A DNA stretch of 39,467 nt. Source: Ignavibacteriota bacterium (GTDB lineage: Bacteria > Bacteroidota > Ignavibacteria > UBA10030). Position numbers and translations under genes: made by a program. The stretch is from NCBI GenBank assembly GCA_003155495.1, contig PMDB01000035.1, positions 35,209-74,675 of the forward strand. The letters run 5' to 3'. The notes under the pieces were generated by a model, which saw only the letters and a program-made list of their open reading frames with translations, ran no database searches and was not told the DNA's origin. Positions 15,959 to 37,610 of this stretch are shown here, piece by piece. The stretch's first letter is position 1, and every line of letters begins with the position of its first letter.

Positions 15959-18052
15959 TTACTTCTTGTATTCTTTTAGTGCTCTTTCGGTTGCATCAAG
16001 CATTGCTTCGCTTCCAACAGGTGAACCGGCCGCGTTCTTCATCCACAAATCTGGAGCGATACTTCCGGATTTGACCATACGTTCCACTTCAGTGCCCACG
16101 CTGCCACTCTTCTTCACCTGCTCTTCAATCTGGTGAGATATTAAATAACCGATTGCATAATCGGGAATATAGAGAAACGAGTGAATAATGTGTGAATAGA
16201 TAGCCAGTAGAACAACATCCTTCTTTTTGAAGACCGGAGCGTAATACTTATTCCAAATTTCTTTTGCTATTTGGAGTGTAGCATCTTTGAGTTCTGCGGG
16301 TGTCGCATTGGGATGATCATACATCCAATGCCAGATTCCCATGTCCACGAGTGAAACACCTGCGATTTCGTAAGTCATCCAAAAATCATTCAGTGTCTTA
16401 AGCCCTTCGCTTTGAGGATCGGGAGAAGACAGGTCAAGCAAGTCGAGATCGTGTGCCTGAAATACAAACGCGATAGCTTCGGTAAATGCGGTATTTGGGA
16501 CGCCACTGAGAAAGTAATGATCAATATCGTTCAATGACAGCGTTTGTTCTACATTGTGTCCCATCTCGTGGACAGCAATGTTGAAACCCTTATAGTCCAT
16601 TCCATCTTTTCCAACACGCGTGCGAAGATGGGCTTTTGCGGAACGCATAGCTGCACCATATGCGTGTCCCGAGCCGCGAGCCGGATCGACCAAAATATTG
16701 TCCGCAAGATATTTCGCACGCTCTTTACTGAAACCAAGCTTCATAAGCATATTCGGCATGTCTGCTTTATACGCATCGGGTGTCGGGTATCGCTTCTTTA
16801 CTATTTCATCAAGCTCTGCTTCGGTGTATTTTCCCTTTGCACGGAAACCATTGTACCAAATGTCGTACGGTTCAAGGGATCTGCCTAATCTTTCTTCAAT
16901 CATTTTTGCTACTTTCGACACGATCGGCGAACTCAACACCGATTCGAGCATTGCTTTCACCCGTGCTTCTGGAATTTCACGCTCCTCGTCGAATTTACGC
17001 GCGATCAAGGTCGGTGCAGTGGGAGAATATGGATCGACTTTCTTTGAAGCGAGGAAGGCTTTTAATAAAGTCGCATACCGTGTATCGGGCTCGGATATAT
17101 TGCTAACTTTAAGGTTTGCTTTGGCCGGTGCATCGATATCTGTGACACCTGCAGGTTGCACCTCGTTCGTAAATGGATTCCAATCCACATTCGGATTATT
17201 CACGACGACTTCCGGAATGGTTTGTGTAACAATTCGTTCCATCACCTGCTGGATCATTTTCTGTTTGGCAATTCCATGCTCTTTGTCATTGTAATCGGCT
17301 TTCAATTCATCGCGCAGATTCCAATGTGAGAGCAGGCGCATCTTTGGAGGGAAGAGACGGTCGCCTTTTGCATCGATAAGGTGATGCATATAAATATTGT
17401 ACTCAGAAATATATTGATCTGTGATAGAAGCGGCTTCCGCAACAGCCTGATTGACTTCTGCCGGAATGCGTTTAGAAAAACGCTGTCCCAGCCTCACTTC
17501 TGCCCATTGGCGGCGCGACCATTGTTCACCGTAGGTCAACCGTTCGTTGAGCGTCGTGAGTGGGAAATTCAGCAGTACTATGAATGCGAGTTTGTTCTTG
17601 AAAAAATCATCCGTGATGTGAGCACCCGGAGAATATGCTGCGAAAGTTTCGTCGAATGGATAGATCGGTCCAAGATCGAGTTCAGATTGCTGACGGAACG
17701 CCAGGCCGATTTCGTTCATATGGCCGCTGAGTTGTTCAAGCAGATTCTCGAAGCGGTTGAACATAACATCGAGTGTTGTTTGATCGCCGGCGAAGTCTAT
17801 GCGAATGAAATCCTCAAATGCAGCCGCATCACCATCTTCCGTGCGCCAGAAATCGGCGACTTGCTTTAATCCTTTTTGCACACGAGTGCGCTGCAACTCG
17901 CCAAATTTTGCGATAAGTTCTTTCTCAAGCTTTGTTTGAGAGTCCTTCATCCATATGACCTGTGCCACTTGTGCTTTCATATGAGTCCCTAGGGTGAGCG
18001 TCAAGAATAACGCAAAAATAAACAAGTTGAGAAAATGATTAAGCGTTGACAT
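15959..18052 (-). CDS. Secreted M3-like (gluzincin) zinc metallopeptidase
   Basis: A 697-residue protein. The N-terminus is a signal peptide (LNLFIFALFLTLTLGTHMKAQ). The zinc motif HEMGH is at residues 495-499 and the likely third ligand is Glu525 in TEAIAF, 26 residues later, a spacing that fits the M3 family (HExGH with a downstream Glu). The long helical N-terminal region is also like M3 oligopeptidases. The enzyme would cleave peptides in the periplasm. A strong ribosome site (TAAGGAGTA) precedes ATG 18052. It is the last gene of a minus-strand run after the AhpD-like gene (53-bp gap). The M3 assignment is inference from motif spacing; the metallopeptidase call itself is firm. Confidence 0.87.
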   Translation of the reverse strand: MSTLNHFLNLFIFALFLTLTLGTHMKAQVAQVIWMKDSQTKLEKELIAKFGELQRTRVQKGLKQVADFWRTEDGDAAAFEDFIRIDFAGDQTTLDVMFNRFENLLEQLSGHMNEIGLAFRQQSELDLGPIYPFDETFAAYSPGAHITDDFFKNKLAFIVLLNFPLTTLNERLTYGEQWSRRQWAEVRLGQRFSKRIPAEVNQAVAEAASITDQYISEYNIYMHHLIDAKGDRLFPPKMRLLSHWNLRDELKADYNDKEHGIAKQKMIQQVMERIVTQTIPEVVVNNPNVDWNPFTNEVQPAGVTDIDAPAKANLKVSNISEPDTRYATLLKAFLASKKVDPYSPTAPTLIARKFDEEREIPEARVKAMLESVLSSPIVSKVAKMIEERLGRSLEPYDIWYNGFRAKGKYTEAELDEIVKKRYPTPDAYKADMPNMLMKLGFSKERAKYLADNILVDPARGSGHAYGAAMRSAKAHLRTRVGKDGMDYKGFNIAVHEMGHNVEQTLSLNDIDHYFLSGVPNTAFTEAIAFVFQAHDLDLLDLSSPDPQSEGLKTLNDFWMTYEIAGVSLVDMGIWHWMYDHPNATPAELKDATLQIAKEIWNKYYAPVFKKKDVVLLAIYSHIIHSFLYIPDYAIGYLISHQIEEQVKKSGSVGTEVERMVKSGSIAPDLWMKNAAGSPVGSEAMLDATERALKEYKK

Positions 18053-18105: not shown

Positions 18106-18468
18106 TTAGACTTCCAATGGCTTATGTTCTGCTCGAAGAGTGTCGATTGTTTCCACGGCGTGGCGTAAGTGCGGAATAAAAATGCTTCCACCGACAATGA
18201 GTGCCACGTTCAAAGCGTCATATAATTCCTCGTCTTTCCATCCTGCATCGATACATTGAATGAGATGATAATCTATGCAATCGTTGCACCGGAGAACGGC
18301 AGAAGCGACCAAGCCCAGCAATTCTTTTGTCCTGGAATCGAGCGTTCCTTCTTTGTAGGCGGCACCATCCAAATTAAGAAACCGTTTGATACCGAGATGA
18401 TCGATTTGGCCAATGCGGTCATTCATTTTCGTGCGGTAAGTGCGGAACTCGTCAAGTTTTGTCGACAT
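18106..18468 (-). CDS. Carboxymuconolactone decarboxylase family (AhpD-like) protein
   Basis: A 120-residue, all-helical protein. The family's redox motif C-x2-C with a nearby His is present (VLRCNDCIDYHL), preceded by LDSRTKELLGLVASAV and followed by DALNVALIVGGSIFIPHL. AhpD-like members use the Cys pair as a thiol reductase or peroxidase partner; true decarboxylases lack this pair, so a redox function is favoured. The start ATG 18468 has AGGATAA upstream. It lies between hemerythrin genes and the peptidase on the same strand, in a setting that looks like oxidative or nitrosative stress defence. Confidence 0.88.
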   Translation of the reverse strand: MSTKLDEFRTYRTKMNDRIGQIDHLGIKRFLNLDGAAYKEGTLDSRTKELLGLVASAVLRCNDCIDYHLIQCIDAGWKDEELYDALNVALIVGGSIFIPHLRHAVETIDTLRAEHKPLEV

Positions 18469-18517
18469 AGTTTATCCTAAGGAATCTTCCTGATTATTGA
18501 TGCTGAAATCCCGTCTG

Positions 18518-18934
18518 TCATGGTTTTGAGATCTTTTTCGATGCAAGGAATGGAATGTAATGTCTGTCGGTTCCAAGCACATGGTAAGAATACCACTCTT
18601 TGAGATATCGGAGAAGTTCTATTCGCAATTCATCCCCACTGCTGCTTTCTATTCTCAAAGCAAGACCAACTGTTTTCATAATAAAGTCAATGTGCTCCAA
18701 TACGTGTTGCTTCAGATTGGGAAAATGTACTTGTAAAAGATATCGTTCCTCTGTAGCAAAATGTGTATAGGCATAATGAATGATCGAAGAGAGCGCAGGT
18801 GAAAATTTTGCTGCTTCGTATTTGTCTCTCTGCTCTTCGAGCAGTGTATTGATCGTCTTGAGTAGATTTCGATGTTGGTCATCAAGTTCCTTCACACCGA
18901 CGGTATATTCATTTTGCCATTCTATGGTTTTCAT
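18518..18934 (-). CDS. Bacteriohemerythrin (copy 1)
   Basis: A 138-residue hemerythrin-like four-helix protein. The di-iron ligand set is complete: His21 (DDQHRNL), His58 and Glu62 (HFATEER), His77, His81 (KQHVLEHIDF), His118 and Asp123 (HVLGTD). The family reversibly binds O2 and is used in bacteria for oxygen delivery, sensing or protection, and for NO binding in some cases. It follows a second hemerythrin gene by 19 bp; the two are paralogues with the same W-x-N/D-x-Y-x-[VI]-G-V-K-E start. No extra domain is fused. Confidence 0.93.
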   Translation of the reverse strand: MKTIEWQNEYTVGVKELDDQHRNLLKTINTLLEEQRDKYEAAKFSPALSSIIHYAYTHFATEERYLLQVHFPNLKQHVLEHIDFIMKTVGLALRIESSSGDELRIELLRYLKEWYSYHVLGTDRHYIPFLASKKISKP

Positions 18935-18953
18935 TGCCTGCGGCTCCTTGCTC

Positions 18954-19361
18954 TTAAGTAAATCCTTTATCCATGAGCGCTTTTTGATAGTCTCGATCTG
19001 TTCCCATGATATGTGCCATATACCAGTCTTTTAGATAATTGAGAATCTTTTGCTGGATATCCGGTTCTTTCTTTTCACAATCATGCACAAGTTTCATCAC
19101 TTCTGTTATGAATACAGTATGTTCCTGTTGATGTTCGATCAATTTTGCGTACTGTGCTTCTCGCATGTAACGCTCTTCAGTGGCAAAGTGGATTTTCGTA
19201 TAGTCGACGAGCTGGATGAGCATAGCGAAAAAATATTTTCCGTCTGTCTCGTACCTCTGCGACGTAGAGAGTTTACTGATGATGTCGAATAATCCACGAT
19301 GTTGAATGTCGATCTCTTTCACACCGATGTTATATGTATCTTCCCATTCGAGGAATTGCAT
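18954..19361 (-). CDS. Bacteriohemerythrin (copy 2)
   Basis: A 135-residue protein beginning MQFLEWEDTYNIGVKEI. The open frame reaches back to 19445, but that extension has no family match. ATG 19361 has GAGGCAGG upstream and aligns with copy 1. Iron ligands are in DIQHRGL, KIHFATEERYM, IEHQQEHTVF and AHIMGTD. It lies 19 bp before copy 1 and 19 bp after the PAS gene, so all three are probably on one transcript. Two adjacent hemerythrins suggest either different O2/NO affinity or a heteromer. Confidence 0.92.
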   Translation of the reverse strand: MQFLEWEDTYNIGVKEIDIQHRGLFDIISKLSTSQRYETDGKYFFAMLIQLVDYTKIHFATEERYMREAQYAKLIEHQQEHTVFITEVMKLVHDCEKKEPDIQQKILNYLKDWYMAHIMGTDRDYQKALMDKGFT

Positions 19362-19380
19362 ACATGCCTGCCTCTTTCTT

Positions 19381-19722
19381 TTACGTCCGAATAAAATGCG
19401 GCATTTCGGATGGAATGGGAAGGCTGAGTTCAACAAAACCGCCATATGTTCCGTCTTGATACCACGGTACCTGATAAATCAACTTATTTGCGCTTCGCTT
19501 TTCAATGGTGTAATAATTTGGTTTCTCGGTTTTTAACATTTCGGCAAGCTGCAAGCGGGCCGGTTCAGGATGGCACTCAAGGAGGTTTTTCCCGAGTAGC
19601 TTTTCGCCTCCGTCTGCTTGAAAAACTTCAATTGCCTTATCGTTCATTTCGAGAATGATCCCATGGACATCGCATACAGTAATTGCGGCAGGGAACGATT
19701 TAATCCATTCATGCTTCATCAT
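19381..19722 (-). CDS. Stand-alone PAS-domain protein
   Basis: A 113-residue protein made of one PAS fold: AITVCDVHGIILEMNDKA, then GKNLLECHPEPARLQL, YYTIEKRSANKLIYQVPWYQDG and GGFVELSLPIP. The CHPEPA segment and the terminal strand resemble the PAS module that follows a hemerythrin domain in DUF438-type proteins, where CHP is also seen. No output domain is attached, so it may work by binding partners. It starts at tandem ATGs (19722/19719), 10 bp after the DinB-like gene, and is followed by two hemerythrin genes. I infer a sensing or redox-ligand role; the ligand is unknown. Confidence 0.82.
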   Translation of the reverse strand: MMKHEWIKSFPAAITVCDVHGIILEMNDKAIEVFQADGGEKLLGKNLLECHPEPARLQLAEMLKTEKPNYYTIEKRSANKLIYQVPWYQDGTYGGFVELSLPIPSEMPHFIRT

Positions 19723-19731
19723 GGATTCTAT

Positions 19732-20202
19732 CTACCATTTCATTTTCTCACGGAATGTGACGATCTGCTGCATGTGGGATTCGCCATGTCTTGAATATAA
19801 TTTTAGTACTTCAAAAAGGGTCACCCTGCCGTTTTCCAGATGAATCCCTTCTCTCGTCCAGCTCGTTTCCGGCAGCGACCGCAAGAAAAGGACCCATCGT
19901 TCGTGCAATCCTTTGATAAGCGTTAGGGTTGATTCAATCGGACCACTCTTGCAATCTGCAAGAATTGCCCATTGATCTTGGTTATAGGGTTTCAGGATGG
20001 GCTTTTCTTCAGTGACGATCAGCTTCATCCGCGTGCATGCGTTCATATTGGCATCGGCAATATGATGCGTAATCTGCCGGATGGTCCATTTACCTTCGCC
20101 GACAGGCGTATCGAGCTGCTTATCGGACAATCCAAGTACGGCGGCGCTAAGAGCATTAGGAAGTCGCTCAATAGCATCAATAAAAATTTTATGTTCTGTC
20201 AT
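19732..20202 (-). CDS. DinB-like (DinB_2/YfiT type) putative metal-dependent hydrolase or thiol transferase
   Basis: A 156-residue four-helix protein. Metal-ligand positions of the family are present: a His pair in ITHHIADANMN (about 46-47) and H-x3-H in YSRHGESHMQQI near the C-terminus. Motif WTIRQITHHIAD is typical of the YfiT/DinB_2 branch. Some DinB-fold proteins are bacillithiol or mycothiol S-transferases and others are of unknown function. The ribosome site AAAGGAA precedes ATG 20202. It heads the run DinB-PAS-hemerythrin-hemerythrin-AhpD-peptidase. Confidence 0.88.
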   Translation of the reverse strand: MTEHKIFIDAIERLPNALSAAVLGLSDKQLDTPVGEGKWTIRQITHHIADANMNACTRMKLIVTEEKPILKPYNQDQWAILADCKSGPIESTLTLIKGLHERWVLFLRSLPETSWTREGIHLENGRVTLFEVLKLYSRHGESHMQQIVTFREKMKW

Positions 20203-20301: not shown

Positions 20302-20934
20302 TTATGGTTTGAAAAGGCCGGATGGTTTTGAACCAAGAAGGCCTGCCTTATAGGAACGTTTATCGACACACGTAAGTTTCCGCGTCATTGCCGGTGTCAT
20401 AATACGATATTTCCGAACACCATTCAATGCATCGCCAATAACATCCATGGCACTGTTATCAATAAGCCAATCGACTTTGTTAAAGCGGTTGAGGTTCAAT
20501 GGAGCGGTGTAACCGAGGAGCGTTCTTTCTCCTGCGATGTTAAAATATGATTCGAAGTATGACATAATCAGTTCACGCAGACTTCGGTACACCGGTTCAC
20601 GATATCGAAGTCCGACAAAATTGGATTTTGCTACAGCGCCCCAGCATTTGCCTTGTCGAAAAACAGCAAGGATGTGGTCGTCATCGCGGTCATTTGGGAG
20701 CATCTCTACAAGAAGCGGCGGAAAGCCGATCATCTGCAAAGCGGCAGCGGCAAAGACCGCGCCGTCGTAACAATGTGCCTTGTTATCCTGTAAAACACTT
20801 CGCGGACAACGATATCTTGCTTCATCACTGTAGGGAAGTGAATCAAGGAAATTCTGAATCTTGACCGGTGAAATGAGTTTGGAAAAAACTTTCAATTCTT
20901 TTTTATGAAGAAGAGATTGTAAGCGAGTTATCAT
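20302..20934 (-). CDS. Putative transglutaminase-like/cysteine-peptidase-fold protein
   Basis: A 210-residue protein without a signal peptide. A possible catalytic Cys lies in KAHCYDGAVFAAAALQMIG, at the start of a helix as in transglutaminase-like folds, and a possible catalytic His in DRDDDHILAVFR, at the start of a strand 40-odd residues later. An aromatic strand (CWGAVAKSN) follows. I do not recognise a named family; the Cys-helix/His-strand order is the only support for the fold. The C-terminal 50 residues are basic. It sits 99 bp upstream of the DinB-like gene, perhaps in the same run. Confidence 0.7.
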   Translation of the reverse strand: MITRLQSLLHKKELKVFSKLISPVKIQNFLDSLPYSDEARYRCPRSVLQDNKAHCYDGAVFAAAALQMIGFPPLLVEMLPNDRDDDHILAVFRQGKCWGAVAKSNFVGLRYREPVYRSLRELIMSYFESYFNIAGERTLLGYTAPLNLNRFNKVDWLIDNSAMDVIGDALNGVRKYRIMTPAMTRKLTCVDKRSYKAGLLGSKPSGLFKP

Positions 20935-21809: not shown

Positions 21810-23591
21810 TTAATAATCTGTGGGCATAGCCTGGTTCAATTTAGCTAAAAATTCTTTTGGGGGAACAAAACCGATAATCCGTGATTCTGTCGCTTCTGTA
21901 CCATCCGTTCGGATGAAAACTACTGTTGGAACACCGGAGATATTGAATTTTTTCCTCAATGTCTCTGATTCAGGTGAATCAAAATATGTAAGGTCCACTT
22001 TTAATCGGCTGATATCTTTTGTTGCGTCGATCACTTTCGGATCGGTCCATGTATTGCGGTCAAGCTCCATACATGGGATACACCAGTCGGCATAGAAATC
22101 AAGGAGCACCGGCATCCCGTTTTGCTTTGCCTCCGATAAATCCAAGTCGGAATATTCTTCCCATGTCATCCCTGTGTCTCTGATACTATTGGCGTATAAA
22201 AGTCCGAGCAGAATCACCACAATTCCGAAAACCCACTGAATATTTTTTAGTACCGGTTTGTCTCTACCGGAGCTGTCAATAAATCCGAGGTAGATTCCGC
22301 CAACGACGAGAACCAAAGGGATAACATACATGTTTTCTTTTGGTGCGATAGCGAGCGAAAGATAGAACAACGCCGTTCCTGTGAGTATGACACCGAATAT
22401 ATGTTCCACCCAGACGAGCCAGGAACCGGACCGTGGGATATTTTTAATAAGTCCCGAGAACGTACCAAGAATGAGATAGGGTAATCCAAGTCCTATCGAA
22501 AGAGTAAAGAATGCCCAGAAGCCGAATGCAGCGCTTCCTTTTGCCGCAACGAATGTCAGCAGTGCAATGACCGGCGGACCGACACAGGGTGCCGCAAACA
22601 CACCGACAACTAAACCGGAAAAATAAAGAGCGATAAAACCAGTGCCGCTTGTGCCGCCGAGTCTGCTGGTAAGCCAATACGGCATCTGTATTTGATATAA
22701 TCCGAATGAACTGAGTGCTAATACAAACAACAGGGCAGCAATAGCGCCAAGTATCCACGGACTTTGCAGCCAGCTTCCAAACAATCCGCCGCCGAGCGCG
22801 GCTGTTACTCCAATGACACTATACATGGTTGCAATGCCGAGAACATAGATGATGGCTTTGATGAAGACTCGTACAAAATTTGTTTCTGACTGTGAACCAA
22901 ATAAGGATACCGTAACGGATAACATCGGATAGACACACGGAGTAAGATTGAGAGCAAGGCCGATGAGGAAGATGGCAAGAAAAGTAAGTACCGATCCTTT
23001 TTGATCAAACATGATCGCAAGTTCATTGTTTACACTTTCTCCGGCGAATTCGGATGGTTTATACCGAGAAAAAATATTTTGGTCTTGCTGAATGGTAGAT
23101 TCTTCAGTACTCACGATGTGCACGGGTATGTTCACATCGATGGTCGACGGAGCAAGACAGAGTTGATTGTTACATGCTTGAACAATGATGCTTGCTTTCA
23201 GTGTATCTCTTCCGGTTGCAAGTTTGTCTGAAAACTTGATGGAAGCAAAGATCGTCGTCATTCCTTCGTACACATCGATCGGTTGATCAGCGAAGGAGAG
23301 TAAGACGAGTTTTCCTTGCGGATACTGCACATCGGTAAGAATGATTCCCTCTCGTGCTTGAAGATCGAATGCGGTACCGATTAAATAATCGAAAGTCGGA
23401 TGATGTGAGTTGACATGCCAATTCTCATTGATGCTAAGTTGAATAGCCACTTGAGCAGTGCTGCCAACTCGAACTTTATCCGATGAGAGTTTGATCTCTA
23501 CGCTCACTTTTTTTGCTGTTGATAGTGACTGAGCAGGGAGTACCGATGCCAGTAAACTCACAAGGAGAAGAATGGAAAGAAAAAATCTCAT
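21810..23591 (-). CDS. dsbD: DsbD-like thiol:disulfide interchange protein
   Basis: A 593-residue protein with the full three-part DsbD layout. After the signal peptide is a periplasmic alpha domain with its Cys pair in ACNNQLCLAP. An eight-helix membrane domain follows, with the two redox Cys in LNLTPCVYPMLS and FAAPCVGPPVIAL. The C-terminal thioredoxin-like gamma domain has WCIPC in VLLDFYADWCIPCMELD. It carries electrons from cytoplasmic thioredoxin across the inner membrane to reduce periplasmic disulfides. It lies 74 bp after the TlpA-like gene and 24 bp before a Cys-containing secreted protein, so it forms a periplasmic thiol-redox operon. Confidence 0.95.
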   Translation of the reverse strand: MRFFLSILLLVSLLASVLPAQSLSTAKKVSVEIKLSSDKVRVGSTAQVAIQLSINENWHVNSHHPTFDYLIGTAFDLQAREGIILTDVQYPQGKLVLLSFADQPIDVYEGMTTIFASIKFSDKLATGRDTLKASIIVQACNNQLCLAPSTIDVNIPVHIVSTEESTIQQDQNIFSRYKPSEFAGESVNNELAIMFDQKGSVLTFLAIFLIGLALNLTPCVYPMLSVTVSLFGSQSETNFVRVFIKAIIYVLGIATMYSVIGVTAALGGGLFGSWLQSPWILGAIAALLFVLALSSFGLYQIQMPYWLTSRLGGTSGTGFIALYFSGLVVGVFAAPCVGPPVIALLTFVAAKGSAAFGFWAFFTLSIGLGLPYLILGTFSGLIKNIPRSGSWLVWVEHIFGVILTGTALFYLSLAIAPKENMYVIPLVLVVGGIYLGFIDSSGRDKPVLKNIQWVFGIVVILLGLLYANSIRDTGMTWEEYSDLDLSEAKQNGMPVLLDFYADWCIPCMELDRNTWTDPKVIDATKDISRLKVDLTYFDSPESETLRKKFNISGVPTVVFIRTDGTEATESRIIGFVPPKEFLAKLNQAMPTDY

Positions 23592-23665
23592 AATCTCATA
23601 TTATCCTCAGTGAGGTTCACCAGTAGACTGCTGTCTCGAAGATGTTTGATATTGTTGAGATCATC

Positions 23666-24154
23666 TTACTTTAATAATGATTTCAATTTCTGTTCGAGTA
23701 ATTCTTTTGATACTAATCCAACCTGACTGGCCATGATATATCCTTTTCTATCTACGATAAAAGTCGTCGGGATGGCTTCGATGCCGCCATACTGTTGAAC
23801 CACTTTTGCTGTTCCGAGCACTACCGGATAATTCATTTTCGCTTTTTCAATATAAGGGGCTACTTTTGACCAACCGTCTTCGTCCAGCGCAATACCGACG
23901 ATTTCAAATCCTTTGGTTTTGTACGTATTGTACACTTCGATAAAATCGGGTATCTCTGCACGGCATGGCGGACACCATGTTGCCCAAAAATTTACAAGAA
24001 CAACTTTTCCTGATAACTTGGAGAGTTCAATCACTTTTCCGTTCTGAGTTTGGAGAGAGAAGTTTGGAGCTTTTTCCCTTTTTTCCTGTTGTGCAGTGCA
24101 GGCGGTGAACAAAAATACGGTAAATACAACTGCAATACTCAATATGCGCTTCAT
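23666..24154 (-). CDS. TlpA/ResA-like thioredoxin lipoprotein
   Basis: A 162-residue protein. The signal peptide has a lipobox (FLFTAC, Cys19), then the thioredoxin-like fold of the AhpC/TSA-TlpA type: APNFSLQTQNGKVIELSKLSGK, the active site ATWCPPCRAEIP (C-x2-C), and the cis-Pro in IEAIPTTFIVDRKG. Proteins of this type reduce disulfides in the periplasm, for example apocytochrome c Cys pairs. The dsbD gene 74 bp downstream could supply the electrons. It is likely the first gene of that operon. Confidence 0.93.
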   Translation of the reverse strand: MKRILSIAVVFTVFLFTACTAQQEKREKAPNFSLQTQNGKVIELSKLSGKVVLVNFWATWCPPCRAEIPDFIEVYNTYKTKGFEIVGIALDEDGWSKVAPYIEKAKMNYPVVLGTAKVVQQYGGIEAIPTTFIVDRKGYIMASQVGLVSKELLEQKLKSLLK

Positions 24155-33956: not shown

Positions 33957-34046
33957 AGCTATTTTGGATAAATGATACGGGGACTGAAAGTGATCCGACA
34001 AATGGCATTGCGCCGACGAAGTCTGCACAACATAAAAGGAAGCACA

Positions 34047-35813
34047 ATGAAAACACTGTGCATCTTATTTGTGTCGCTGTTGTATTCAGTACCAGTTCAA
34101 GCGCATAATGAACCAGCGTTTGAAAAAAAGATATTACTAAATCAAAATACCTGGTCAAGCTGCCAGACGTCAGAAAGTGAGATTAATCATTTTTCTGATT
34201 TAGTCTCCGGTTCTAATGAAACATCATTCCCGAACTCTATTATCACTTCTCTCAAAGATACTATTCCTTCCCAGCTGGATACGCTGGCCAAGCTAAAGAA
34301 TGCTCTTAAGGACACGAATGAGGTTAAGAAAGACACTCCTATTCCGGATACAATCAAGCAGCATATTGAGGAAACCAATGTCAAGACGAACGTTGTCCCC
34401 ACGGATACGAGCTACAAGAAAATTTTAGTCCAGGACTCGACTGCGCACATTTATAACATGTACCGGGGTTTGCTGAATGATGATCCAATCTATAACAAAA
34501 GGGCTCCATTGTGGCAGCCGATCATGAAGATCTTGATACAGAATACGCTCGTAAACTTGGTCGATCATTATATTATTCATTATGACTGGGCTGTCGTGGG
34601 GTTAAAGTCTTGGAATCAAACGGCAGTTCACTCGGGTGTTCCCTGGGGTGAAGGATGGAAATGGGATCAGGATAGATTTGGCAATAACTTTTTTCTGCAT
34701 CCCTATACAGGAGCAGGCTACTTCAATTCAGCACGCGCAACCGGATATAACTTTTGGGAATCGTCGATCTTTGTATTTGGAGGAGCGTATACGTACAAGC
34801 TGTTCGGAGAGAATGGCTGGCCCGATGGTAAACCGGAAAGGAATGATCTGATTGCTACAACTCTCGGTGGTATGTTCGCCGGTGAAGTATTGTACAGACT
34901 GTCGTCAAACGTCTTAGATGAGAGAACTACCGGGATAGAAAGAGTCGGCAGGGAATTCCTGGCCCTTCTTGTGAGTCCTGGCAGGGCCTTCACCAGATTC
35001 ATGAACGGGAAAATGTTCAGGCATAATACGGAAGAGGTTTATCAAAAAGAACCGCTTGATGTCGTTATATCGGCTGGCGGCATCTTGGTGAACGACCAAA
35101 ATACTTTCGGAACAGGACCAAAGGGATATTTCTTTAATGCTGATTTTGATTATGGAAATCCGTTCGAGAAAAGGCACCGAAAGCCGTATGATTACTTTCA
35201 ACTTCGGGCTGATATGAATTTCGGATTAGGTAGAAAATTTGTAGATAATGTTATTGGGTACGGTATTCTTACAGGCACAAATGCCAAGGTAGGTAATTTT
35301 GAAATGCTCTTCGGAACTTTTCAACACTTTGATTATTGGGATAATAAATTATTTGAGCTGGGAACGATGTCGTTCGGCGTCGGAGTCATTACCATGATGC
35401 CGATAACCAGGGGGACGAATCTATTCATGAATATTCACATCGCTGGAATACCCTTTGCAGGAAATTCGACAGAGAAGGGGCCGGATACTACACAAGTGAG
35501 AGATTATAATTTTGGCGGCGGAGCACAGGCAAAGTGTGATATCACGCTTAATATTGGTGGATTTGTCAGCGCAACGTTCATGGGTTATTATTATTGGATA
35601 AATACGTTCGTCGGTTATTCAGGGAACAACTATATTGGTATCATAAAACCCAGAATTGAATTCCACCTCTTCAGTAATGTCGGAATTGGATTTGAACATA
35701 GGGTATATTACAATGACAGATATTTACGTGATTTCCCTGCTATCCATCAAATACATACAGAGCAAAAACTTTTTCTGACATTTTATTTTGCAGACTTTGC
35801 GCACAATAAGTAA
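34047..35813 (+). CDS. DUF3943-domain outer-membrane protein, copy 1
   Basis: A 588-residue protein. ATG 34047 with AAAAGGA upstream starts a signal peptide (MKTLCILFVSLLYSVPVQAH); the frame from 33972 adds a basic non-signal extension. An N-terminal Ser/Thr/Asp/Lys-rich spacer of about 120 residues is followed by the DUF3943 core: NLVDHYIIHYDWAVVG, GWKWDQDRFGNNFFLHPYTGAGYF, ARATGYNFWESSIF and RVGREFLALLVSPGRAFTRF. The C-terminus has alternating aromatic strands ending FFLTFYFADFAH-like, consistent with a beta-barrel. Function unknown. A close paralogue follows at 36084. Confidence 0.87.
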   Translation: MKTLCILFVSLLYSVPVQAHNEPAFEKKILLNQNTWSSCQTSESEINHFSDLVSGSNETSFPNSIITSLKDTIPSQLDTLAKLKNALKDTNEVKKDTPIPDTIKQHIEETNVKTNVVPTDTSYKKILVQDSTAHIYNMYRGLLNDDPIYNKRAPLWQPIMKILIQNTLVNLVDHYIIHYDWAVVGLKSWNQTAVHSGVPWGEGWKWDQDRFGNNFFLHPYTGAGYFNSARATGYNFWESSIFVFGGAYTYKLFGENGWPDGKPERNDLIATTLGGMFAGEVLYRLSSNVLDERTTGIERVGREFLALLVSPGRAFTRFMNGKMFRHNTEEVYQKEPLDVVISAGGILVNDQNTFGTGPKGYFFNADFDYGNPFEKRHRKPYDYFQLRADMNFGLGRKFVDNVIGYGILTGTNAKVGNFEMLFGTFQHFDYWDNKLFELGTMSFGVGVITMMPITRGTNLFMNIHIAGIPFAGNSTEKGPDTTQVRDYNFGGGAQAKCDITLNIGGFVSATFMGYYYWINTFVGYSGNNYIGIIKPRIEFHLFSNVGIGFEHRVYYNDRYLRDFPAIHQIHTEQKLFLTFYFADFAHNK

Positions 35814-36083: not shown

Positions 36084-37610
36084 ATGAAAATCATATTCAT
36101 AATGGCTATCGCCATATTGTGTTCAGGATTGCTTCGGGCACAATATCTTGTAAAGCTTGATACACTATACATGTCAAATCTGAAGATCGGAACTCAGCAA
36201 CAACTCTACAAAGTGGATTCCAGATCTTATTCCTACTTAGGATTGAACACCGCGAAACATTCGCTGGAAGACACTGTACACAATAAGTACGGTGATTTAC
36301 GGAATGACAAAGAGGAATTTAACAAGCAATACCCCTTGTGGACAGTTGCTCTGAAGGTTACCGGAGCTAATATTTTTACTTTTTTAGTCGATAGATATTT
36401 TTTCAACTATGATTTTTCGCGGGTAGGATTCAATTCCTGGAACCATAACATACAAACCGGATGGGAATGGGATCAAGATAGATTTGGCATGAACTTTATC
36501 GTGCATCCGTACTCCGGAAGCGCTTTTTTCAATGCTGCGCGCTCAAGCGGTTACAATTTCTGGGAATCAGCGCCTTTTGCAGCTTTAGGCAGTTTGGAGT
36601 GGGAGTACTTTGGAGAAAACACCCTGCCGTCATATAACGATATTATCAACACGACGGTCGACGGCATCTTCATCGGAGAAGTGTTCTATAGAATAGGCTC
36701 GGATATACTCGATGATCAAACGACGGGATTTGATAGATTTTTCCGGGAATTTTCTGTTGCCATTCTTTCTCCCACGAGAGCTTTCAGCAGGTTCACACAG
36801 GGGAAAATGTTCAGAGTGACCTCGGAAGAGGTCTATCAGCAAGAACCGCTGAATGTTACATTGACGCTCGGGATGCGTGAGGTGAATAATGGATCAAAAT
36901 TCTTGACAGGACCAGCAAACCCCCTCTTTGAGATTAACCTTGATTATGGGAATCCGTTTGAAATAAGGTCACGGAAACCTTTTGATTATTTCAAGGTGAG
37001 AATGAGTATAACTCAAGGAGTGGGAAGAAAAATATTGGATAACATCACCGGAGATGGAATCCTCTTCGGCGGTAATGTCCATTCTGGTCGTTTTGACATG
37101 CTCGGCGGGGGATTTCAACATTTTGACTACTTTGATAATAAAACATTCGAACTTGCCACCTTTGGGTTCGGTCCCGGAATAGTCACTAAACTGCATGTGA
37201 ACACGAATTCCAATCTTTACACAAACTTCCATATCGGCATAGTGCCGCTCGCTGGAAATAGTACACGATTTGGACCTGACACTCTTCAATTGAGGGATTA
37301 TAACTTTGGAGGAGGGGCTGAAATAAAATTTGAATCTACTCTTAATCTTGGATCGTGGGTAGGCTTTTCATTAGTAGGTTATTATTTCTGGATTCATACG
37401 TACGTGGGGGATGCAGAGGATCATTACATCGGCATTCTCAAACCCAGTATAGGATTAAAACTTTTCAACAATCTCAGTATTGGATTTGAACATTTGATAT
37501 ACTATAGCGATCGATACACACGTGATTATGGTAATTTTCATCAAGTGAGAACCGAACAGAGAATCCAATTGACACTCTACTTCGAAAATTTTAAACAACA
37601 AAAAAAATGA
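36084..37610 (+). CDS. DUF3943-domain outer-membrane protein, copy 2
   Basis: A 508-residue protein with ribosome site GGAGG before ATG 36084 and signal peptide MKIIFIMAIAILCSGLLRAQ. The core matches copy 1 block for block: FNSWNHNIQTGWEWDQDRFGM, FIVHPYSGSAFFNAARSSGYNFWES, DDQTTGFDRFFREFSVAILSPTRAFSRFTQGKMF. It lacks the long polar spacer of copy 1. It is thus a tandem paralogue with a different N-terminus. Function unknown. The next gene starts 62 bp later and encodes a PAP2 protein. Confidence 0.87.
   Translation: MKIIFIMAIAILCSGLLRAQYLVKLDTLYMSNLKIGTQQQLYKVDSRSYSYLGLNTAKHSLEDTVHNKYGDLRNDKEEFNKQYPLWTVALKVTGANIFTFLVDRYFFNYDFSRVGFNSWNHNIQTGWEWDQDRFGMNFIVHPYSGSAFFNAARSSGYNFWESAPFAALGSLEWEYFGENTLPSYNDIINTTVDGIFIGEVFYRIGSDILDDQTTGFDRFFREFSVAILSPTRAFSRFTQGKMFRVTSEEVYQQEPLNVTLTLGMREVNNGSKFLTGPANPLFEINLDYGNPFEIRSRKPFDYFKVRMSITQGVGRKILDNITGDGILFGGNVHSGRFDMLGGGFQHFDYFDNKTFELATFGFGPGIVTKLHVNTNSNLYTNFHIGIVPLAGNSTRFGPDTLQLRDYNFGGGAEIKFESTLNLGSWVGFSLVGYYFWIHTYVGDAEDHYIGILKPSIGLKLFNNLSIGFEHLIYYSDRYTRDYGNFHQVRTEQRIQLTLYFENFKQQKK

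Follow-up and report, generated by a model that had tools for sequence, protein, structure and literature searches.

Hemerythrins have been linked to oxygen protection and to PAS domains in several described systems. In Campylobacter jejuni, HerA and HerB, two hemerythrins of one genome, help to shield Fe-S enzymes from oxygen (PMC4257069). Methylomonas denitrificans carries a contiguous bacteriohemerythrin pair (bhr-77/-88) as well as Bhr-55, in which a bacteriohemerythrin is joined with PAS-like domains, and the same source describes a predicted bacteriohemerythrin fused with up to seven PAS-like domains (PMC12607906). A third arrangement is that of the DUF438 proteins (for instance PF0695, structure 3cax), in which a DUF438 domain, a PF01814 hemerythrin and a PAS_10 domain bring a CHP-motif PAS and a hemerythrin into one genetic unit. 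Here we describe a unit of five genes from an Ignavibacteriota bacterium, located in a stretch of 39,467 nucleotides (contig PMDB01000035.1 of assembly GCA_003155495.1, positions 35,209 to 74,675; "the window" denotes this whole stretch). The five genes encode a DinB-fold protein, a stand-alone PAS protein, two bacteriohemerythrins (HemB and HemA) and an AhpD-like protein. They form a real redox gene cluster that is kept in close relatives. The cluster is probably an accessory operon for microaerobic and thiol stress, in which the PAS protein would serve as a separate soluble sensor or adaptor and not as a piece broken off a DUF438 protein. Its genes, in their order along the minus strand, are as follows.

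19732–20202, minus strand: DinB-fold gene of YfiT type (putative bacillithiol S-transferase), 156 aa; PF12867, PRK13291, 1rxq.
19381–19722, minus strand: stand-alone PAS protein with a CHPEPA motif, 113 aa; PF00989, AlphaFold 2 (AF2) model.
18954–19361, minus strand: bacteriohemerythrin HemB, 135 aa; NF033749, seven-ligand pattern, 4xpy alignment.
18518–18934, minus strand: bacteriohemerythrin HemA, 138 aa; NF033749, seven-ligand pattern, DcrH 2avk alignment.
18106–18468, minus strand: AhpD-like CMD protein with a CNDCIDYH motif, 120 aa; PF02627, TIGR00778, 1vke/1p8c.

The open reading frames (ORFs) of all five genes were confirmed on the minus strand between 18106 and 20202, separated by gaps of 9 bp (DinB–PAS), 19 bp (PAS–HemB), 19 bp (HemB–HemA) and 49 bp (HemA–AhpD). 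The ORF list placed the start of HemB at 19445, within the PAS gene, but a protein of usual length results from a start at the Met of MQFLEW (19361). Curated Pfam cut-offs were exceeded in the cluster by Hemerythrin (PF01814, twice), DinB_2, CMD and PAS. Against the bacteriohemerythrin profile NF033749 (cut-off 84), HemA and HemB score 105.8 and 118.9 bits, respectively. The seven-ligand diiron pattern (five His, one Glu, one Asp) is complete in both, and among solved structures HemB aligns with the bacteriohemerythrin 4xpy and HemA with DcrH 2avk. The two share 38% identity, and 30–34% with a second tandem bacteriohemerythrin pair of the same genome (L057, 3424–3831 and 4036–4443), whose members are 67% identical to each other.

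The DinB-fold product matches PF12867 with 77 bits, and its closest solved structure is the bacillithiol transferase YfiT (1rxq, E 1.6e-31), with which it aligns over nearly its full length. The aligned histidines, kept in the window protein, are presumably a metal site. The bacillithiol synthase BshC, the one enzyme of the pathway searched for, is present in 20 of 21 genomes, including that of the window. The AhpD-like protein matches PF02627 (55 bits) and the AhpD core domain (TIGR00778, 30.6 bits; cut-off 27.8), with the CxxC...H signature lying in CNDCIDYH. Among solved structures it is closest, over nearly its whole length and with the CxxC region kept, to the CMD protein 1vke/1p8c (E 2.4e-35), which we take to be Thermotoga TM1620. 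The original prediction, which was made from the DNA letters alone, had described five genes on one strand with gaps of 10–19 bp through the hemerythrins and 49 bp before the AhpD-like gene, and this description was borne out almost to the base. Its further suggestion that the AhpD-like and DinB-fold neighbors fit a thiol-based defense gains support from the YfiT-type gene, BshC and the CxxC-bearing AhpD-like gene, and a thiol/oxygen-stress role of the cluster is plausible.

The nearest named relatives of the cluster are Ignavibacteriae metagenome-assembled genomes (MAGs; Ignavibacteriota). The full order DinB-PAS-HemB-HemA-AhpD, followed by an M3-like peptidase gene, is present in G001, G003 and G004, three of the five further genomes that represent the genus. 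In a fourth, G005, the same order runs up to the contig end after HemA, and the AhpD gene opens another contig of that genome. Compared with G001, the five genes show nonsynonymous divergence (dN) of 0.02–0.15 and synonymous divergence (dS) of 0.27–1.12, which implies that all five are under purifying selection. Compared with G003–G005, dS either exceeds 2 or could not be computed in each of the 14 gene comparisons, and such saturation indicates that the cluster order has persisted for some time. The expectation of a conserved order in relatives was thus confirmed within the genus; outside the genus it failed, except for a PAS-hemerythrin pair in the genome G026, considered below.

Gene losses among the relatives separate the components of the cluster. 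G002 (same genus, 96% complete) retains a transglutaminase-like gene (identified by eye), DinB, HemB and HemA in this order (L205, 2061–3471). Its DinB and HemB genes are roughly 100 bp apart, and a search of its genome gave no PAS match and no AhpD match. Conversely, G009 carries DinB-PAS-AhpD-peptidase, and G017 carries DinB, a gene of 653 aa, PAS and AhpD, both with no bacteriohemerythrin in the flanks examined (here and below 1.5–6 kb on either side of the PAS gene, less at contig ends). Each of the two pairs, the hemerythrins on one side and PAS with AhpD on the other, therefore occurs in the absence of its counterpart. Because relatives keep hemerythrins without PAS and PAS without hemerythrins, the five genes are probably not a known sensor that has been split.

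The PAS protein (PF00989, 27 bits; cut-off 22.6) was modeled by AF2 as a PAS fold with a pLDDT of 89.3, and it belongs to a sharply bounded family. In the taxonomic order of the window genome, 44 of 98 genomes carry a single copy, scoring above 140 bits except for two contig-end fragments, while other PAS sequences stay below 28. In a phylum sample of 395 genomes, 33 match at E 0.001, of which 20 exceed 106 bits and the rest fall below 31. Among named genomes, at least 565 stretches encode relatives of this PAS, and the best 80 span 15 phylum groups, including two archaeal MAGs; the family tree mixes phyla. Judged by these searches, the family is stand-alone, discrete and spread across many phyla. 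Seventeen residues, including C50, H51, Y71, K75, K80, Q84, W87, E98 and R112, are identical in all 102 distinct family sequences, a figure biased upwards by the choice of named loci (the best 80 of at least 565 matches, retrieved with two peptide patterns). In our judgment this conservation appears to exceed what would be expected of a PAS domain, and the protein has no output domain. Among the papers listed by our literature search, from which subscription papers were mostly absent, none was recognized as treating the five-gene set, the stand-alone CHPE PAS family or the function of this PAS.

The neighbors of the PAS gene vary between lineages. Among close co-directional neighbors from all lineages (n = 61 of 65, with DinB and HemB from both L075 and L076 left out), the most frequent Pfam families were Radical_SAM (17), PqqD (11) and SPASM (9). 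Members of one protein family accompany the PAS gene in 20 Chloroflexota loci, flanking it on one side in L109 and on both sides in the other 19 (L080, L081, L082, L085, L088, L096–L099, L103, L105, L108, L113, L119, L122, L124, L129, L134 and L150). Two of these loci, L081 and L113, contain a second, diverged PAS copy directly upstream of the first, with CHPEPS in one copy.

The preferred reading of the cluster as a stress-related accessory operon implies the following division of labor. The two bacteriohemerythrins would bind O2 (or nitric oxide, NO) at their diiron centers and buffer or deliver the gas. By analogy with HerA and HerB, whose oxygen protection is the likely parallel, such buffering might shield oxygen-sensitive enzymes (PMC4257069). 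The window pair, whose role is a predicted one, differs in being adjacent and set among thiol-defense genes. The YfiT-type protein would conjugate electrophiles to bacillithiol, and the AhpD-like protein would use its CxxC as a peroxidase or reductase acting on thiols. The PAS protein may be a diffusible redox or gas sensor or adaptor that works through its invariant Cys50-His51 with a putative partner, and its position beside the hemerythrins would represent a pairing at the level of the lineage. The data establish the gene identities, the ligand motifs, the conserved order and the natural uncoupling of the parts, whereas co-transcription of the genes, all of this chemistry and the PAS role are inferred.

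The cluster may also be longer than five genes, as two further genes stand beside it in relatives.

20302–20934, minus strand: transglutaminase-like gene, upstream and possibly of the same block; Transglut_core below cut-off.
15959–18052, minus strand: M3-like metallopeptidase gene, separated by 53 bp from the AhpD-like gene on its downstream side; PF01432 below cut-off, HExxH in the sequence.

The peptidase gene adjoins the cluster in G001, G003, G004 and G009, and the transglutaminase-like gene lies beside or near DinB in G001, G003, G004 and G005, as well as in G002. Farther upstream, DsbD-type and AhpC/TSA-type genes (21810–24154, minus strand) make up a redox neighborhood together with the cluster. 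Elsewhere in the window, two adjoining DUF3943 proteins are encoded on the plus strand (33972–35813 and 36084–37610), and a search for RNA families matched only a tRNA.

Several observations weigh against an operon with these functions. Promoter-like sites (12, with 17.5 expected from shuffles) and terminator-like sites (10, with 8.2 expected) were not in excess. The DinB-fold protein differs from curated YfiT transferases in scoring just below the cut-off of their model (PRK13291, 156.7 bits; cut-off 160), and the AhpD-like protein differs from AhpD proper in falling far below the cut-off of the full-length profile (TIGR00777, 16.3 bits; cut-off 191.95). In G001 about 830 bp with other sequence separate the transglutaminase-like gene from DinB. 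Moreover, the flanking genes are themselves kept in the same order, so conservation within the genus may in part be general synteny.

Among the alternatives, the one that survives best is a trans-acting O2/NO sensor, in which the PAS protein would bind HemB (or both hemerythrins) and read their oxygenation; the split between the two would then be functional and not evolutionary. PAS and HemB are adjacent in five genomes of the genus including that of the window, with a gap of 19 bp in the window and about 17–20 bp in the others. In G026, the stop codon of the PAS gene and the start codon of a HemB-like hemerythrin gene (L073, 3180–3489) share one base. Such stop/start overlap is a mark of tight operon coupling, and here it occurs in a different context, since the upstream genes of G026 also differ. 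In a tree, the G026 hemerythrin is placed next to the HemB clade (support 0.947, 35–41% identity), whereas the PAS of G026 stands apart from the PAS proteins of the genus (PAS tree computed after L006, a duplicate of the window locus, was dropped). For the C-terminal half of the PAS model, the top structural matches are 3cax and 2qkp, shown to be DUF438 relatives (Z 5.9 for both, the next match at 4.2), with root-mean-square deviations of 3.9 over 68 residues and 2.9 over 67, respectively, although taken by itself such a Z is low. M. denitrificans provides a published bacteriohemerythrin-PAS fusion as a further parallel, with the difference that PAS is fused in Bhr-55 and stands alone in the window; the neighbors were compared only in outline (PMC12607906).

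Against such a sensor, G002 keeps its hemerythrins without the PAS gene, and a bacteriohemerythrin beside PAS was absent from 96 of the 97 distinct loci examined outside the genus, G026 being the only exception, as well as from 13 further class-level PAS loci. The order-level part of this survey covered the 44 PAS genomes less G060, G076, G093 and G097, and fewer than 400 bp downstream of PAS were available in L045, L073, L109, L130 and L147. Neighbors were searched with HemA/HemB tblastn, the ligand pattern, which passes over the G026 gene because the contig end cuts it, and the bacteriohemerythrin profile. In a control this profile barely detected HHE-type hemerythrins, and PF01814 was covered among the matches listed, so that HHE-type neighbors are not fully excluded by the survey. 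Chance could plausibly place one such pair among about 110 loci (roughly 0.1 by our estimate). Another hemerythrin of G001 (L192) is nearly as similar to that of G026 (40%), the G026 genome has a completeness of 55%, and the hemerythrin gene runs off the end of its contig. The G026 pairing is thus a lead and not proof; together with the fold match of the PAS C-terminal half it keeps the link between PAS and hemerythrin open, and we regard the trans-acting sensor as a possible but unlikely account of the cluster.

A second alternative takes the five genes as incidental neighbors, unrelated small genes held together by general synteny in one genus. The kept order of the flanking genes would fit this, as would the break-up of the order outside the genus, where PAS neighbors differ from lineage to lineage. 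General synteny would not readily explain short same-strand gaps that persist at saturated dS, nor the recurrence of DinB, PAS and AhpD together in G009 and G017, and we consider this account unlikely.

Alternatively, the PAS protein could sense gas by itself through a bound heme, ligated by His51 where Aer2 has its heme histidine. In fold, the full model is closest to the Aer2 PAS structures 3vol and 4hi4 (Z 12.3 and 12.6), but so many other PAS structures score less than 1 Z away that the ranking amounts to a tie. His51 is invariant across all 102 family sequences; an HP at this place is, however, a common PAS motif, which weighs against a heme function. A heme histidine of the FixL type, located on F-alpha, is absent, in that the HEH of FixL, one of whose two histidines we assume to be the heme ligand, aligns with PAS residues 57–59, which are L, Q and L (a weak match, E 0.03). 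The counterpart of the distal Trp of Aer2, presumably on I-beta, would lie near PAS residues 99–101 (L-S-L), as counted from the end of the aligned range. An alignment of the C-terminal fragment, known by its end points only, puts PAS residue 46 at Aer2 228–229 and His51 accordingly at about 233–234; Aer2 coordinates heme through H234 (PMC13401364), and its heme histidine is located on E-alpha/E-eta (PMC10468136). The window protein further differs from Aer2 in standing alone, and any heme in it is putative. We regard a heme PAS as quite improbable.

A broader proposal would treat the CHPE-PAS proteins as undescribed free-standing gas or redox sensors, nearly unchanged across phyla, which act in trans through their invariant Cys-His and have here been wired to a bacteriohemerythrin as a two-protein diiron/PAS oxygen sensor. 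We offer it as a speculation to which we give little credence.

The weakest account is a literal split, in which an ancestral DUF438-hemerythrin-PAS protein was broken into separate genes, and it is very improbable. It could draw on the CHP common to both PAS groups at the same place, on a profile-profile comparison of the stand-alone PAS with the DUF438 PAS (probability 91.8, 21% identity) and on the fold match of the C-terminal half to the DUF438 PAS structures. The full model gives a different ranking, with 3cax at rank 12 in one structure search and outside the 50 entries of another (Foldseek was run without its viral library). The DUF438 domain occurs in 14 of 247 phylum genomes, and a DUF438 search of the window genome (G000, 97% complete) gave no match, the same search matching 2 of 14 genomes as a control. 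The original prediction had taken CHPEPA as a segment seen in DUF438 PAS domains; the DUF438 motif is CHPP in all 14 proteins (from ORFs chosen by CHP, one from each of 14 loci), and CHPE marks the separate stand-alone family. Family members score above 106 bits with the family profile, contig-end fragments aside, and other PAS below 31. DUF438 PAS reach 6–14 bits, compared with 16–30 for other PAS, a contrast biased in favor of the latter, which are best hits, unannotated and in several cases located in long ORFs that may be kinases. PAS_10 (PF13596) has no match in the window PAS at E 0.1; of 37 family members examined, 10 do match it, the best at 1.6e-4.

The hemerythrins differ as well. 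That of the one DUF438 protein examined matches PF01814, and DUF438 proteins score no more than 10 bits with a bacteriohemerythrin profile built from HemA/HemB-type genes; by profile, the window bacteriohemerythrins and the hemerythrins of DUF438 proteins belong to different subfamilies. The literal split was therefore rejected on domain search, motif, profile scores with PAS controls and fold, and is largely refuted. The original idea of a split DUF438 protein with its sensor parts as separate proteins went unsupported, given a genome without a DUF438 domain, CHPE in place of CHPP, bacteriohemerythrins as partners, and separate genes that occur without each other in relatives. The resemblance between the PAS protein and DUF438 noticed there is real as a distant relation, as far as profiles and fold can tell, and is not that of a split protein.

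Every part of the cluster is of a known kind. The gene-loss contrasts, with hemerythrins kept without PAS and PAS kept without hemerythrins, offer a natural way to ask whether stand-alone PAS proteins serve as separate sensors, and the orphan PAS family together with the extra hemerythrin pairing in G026 is the part worth following.

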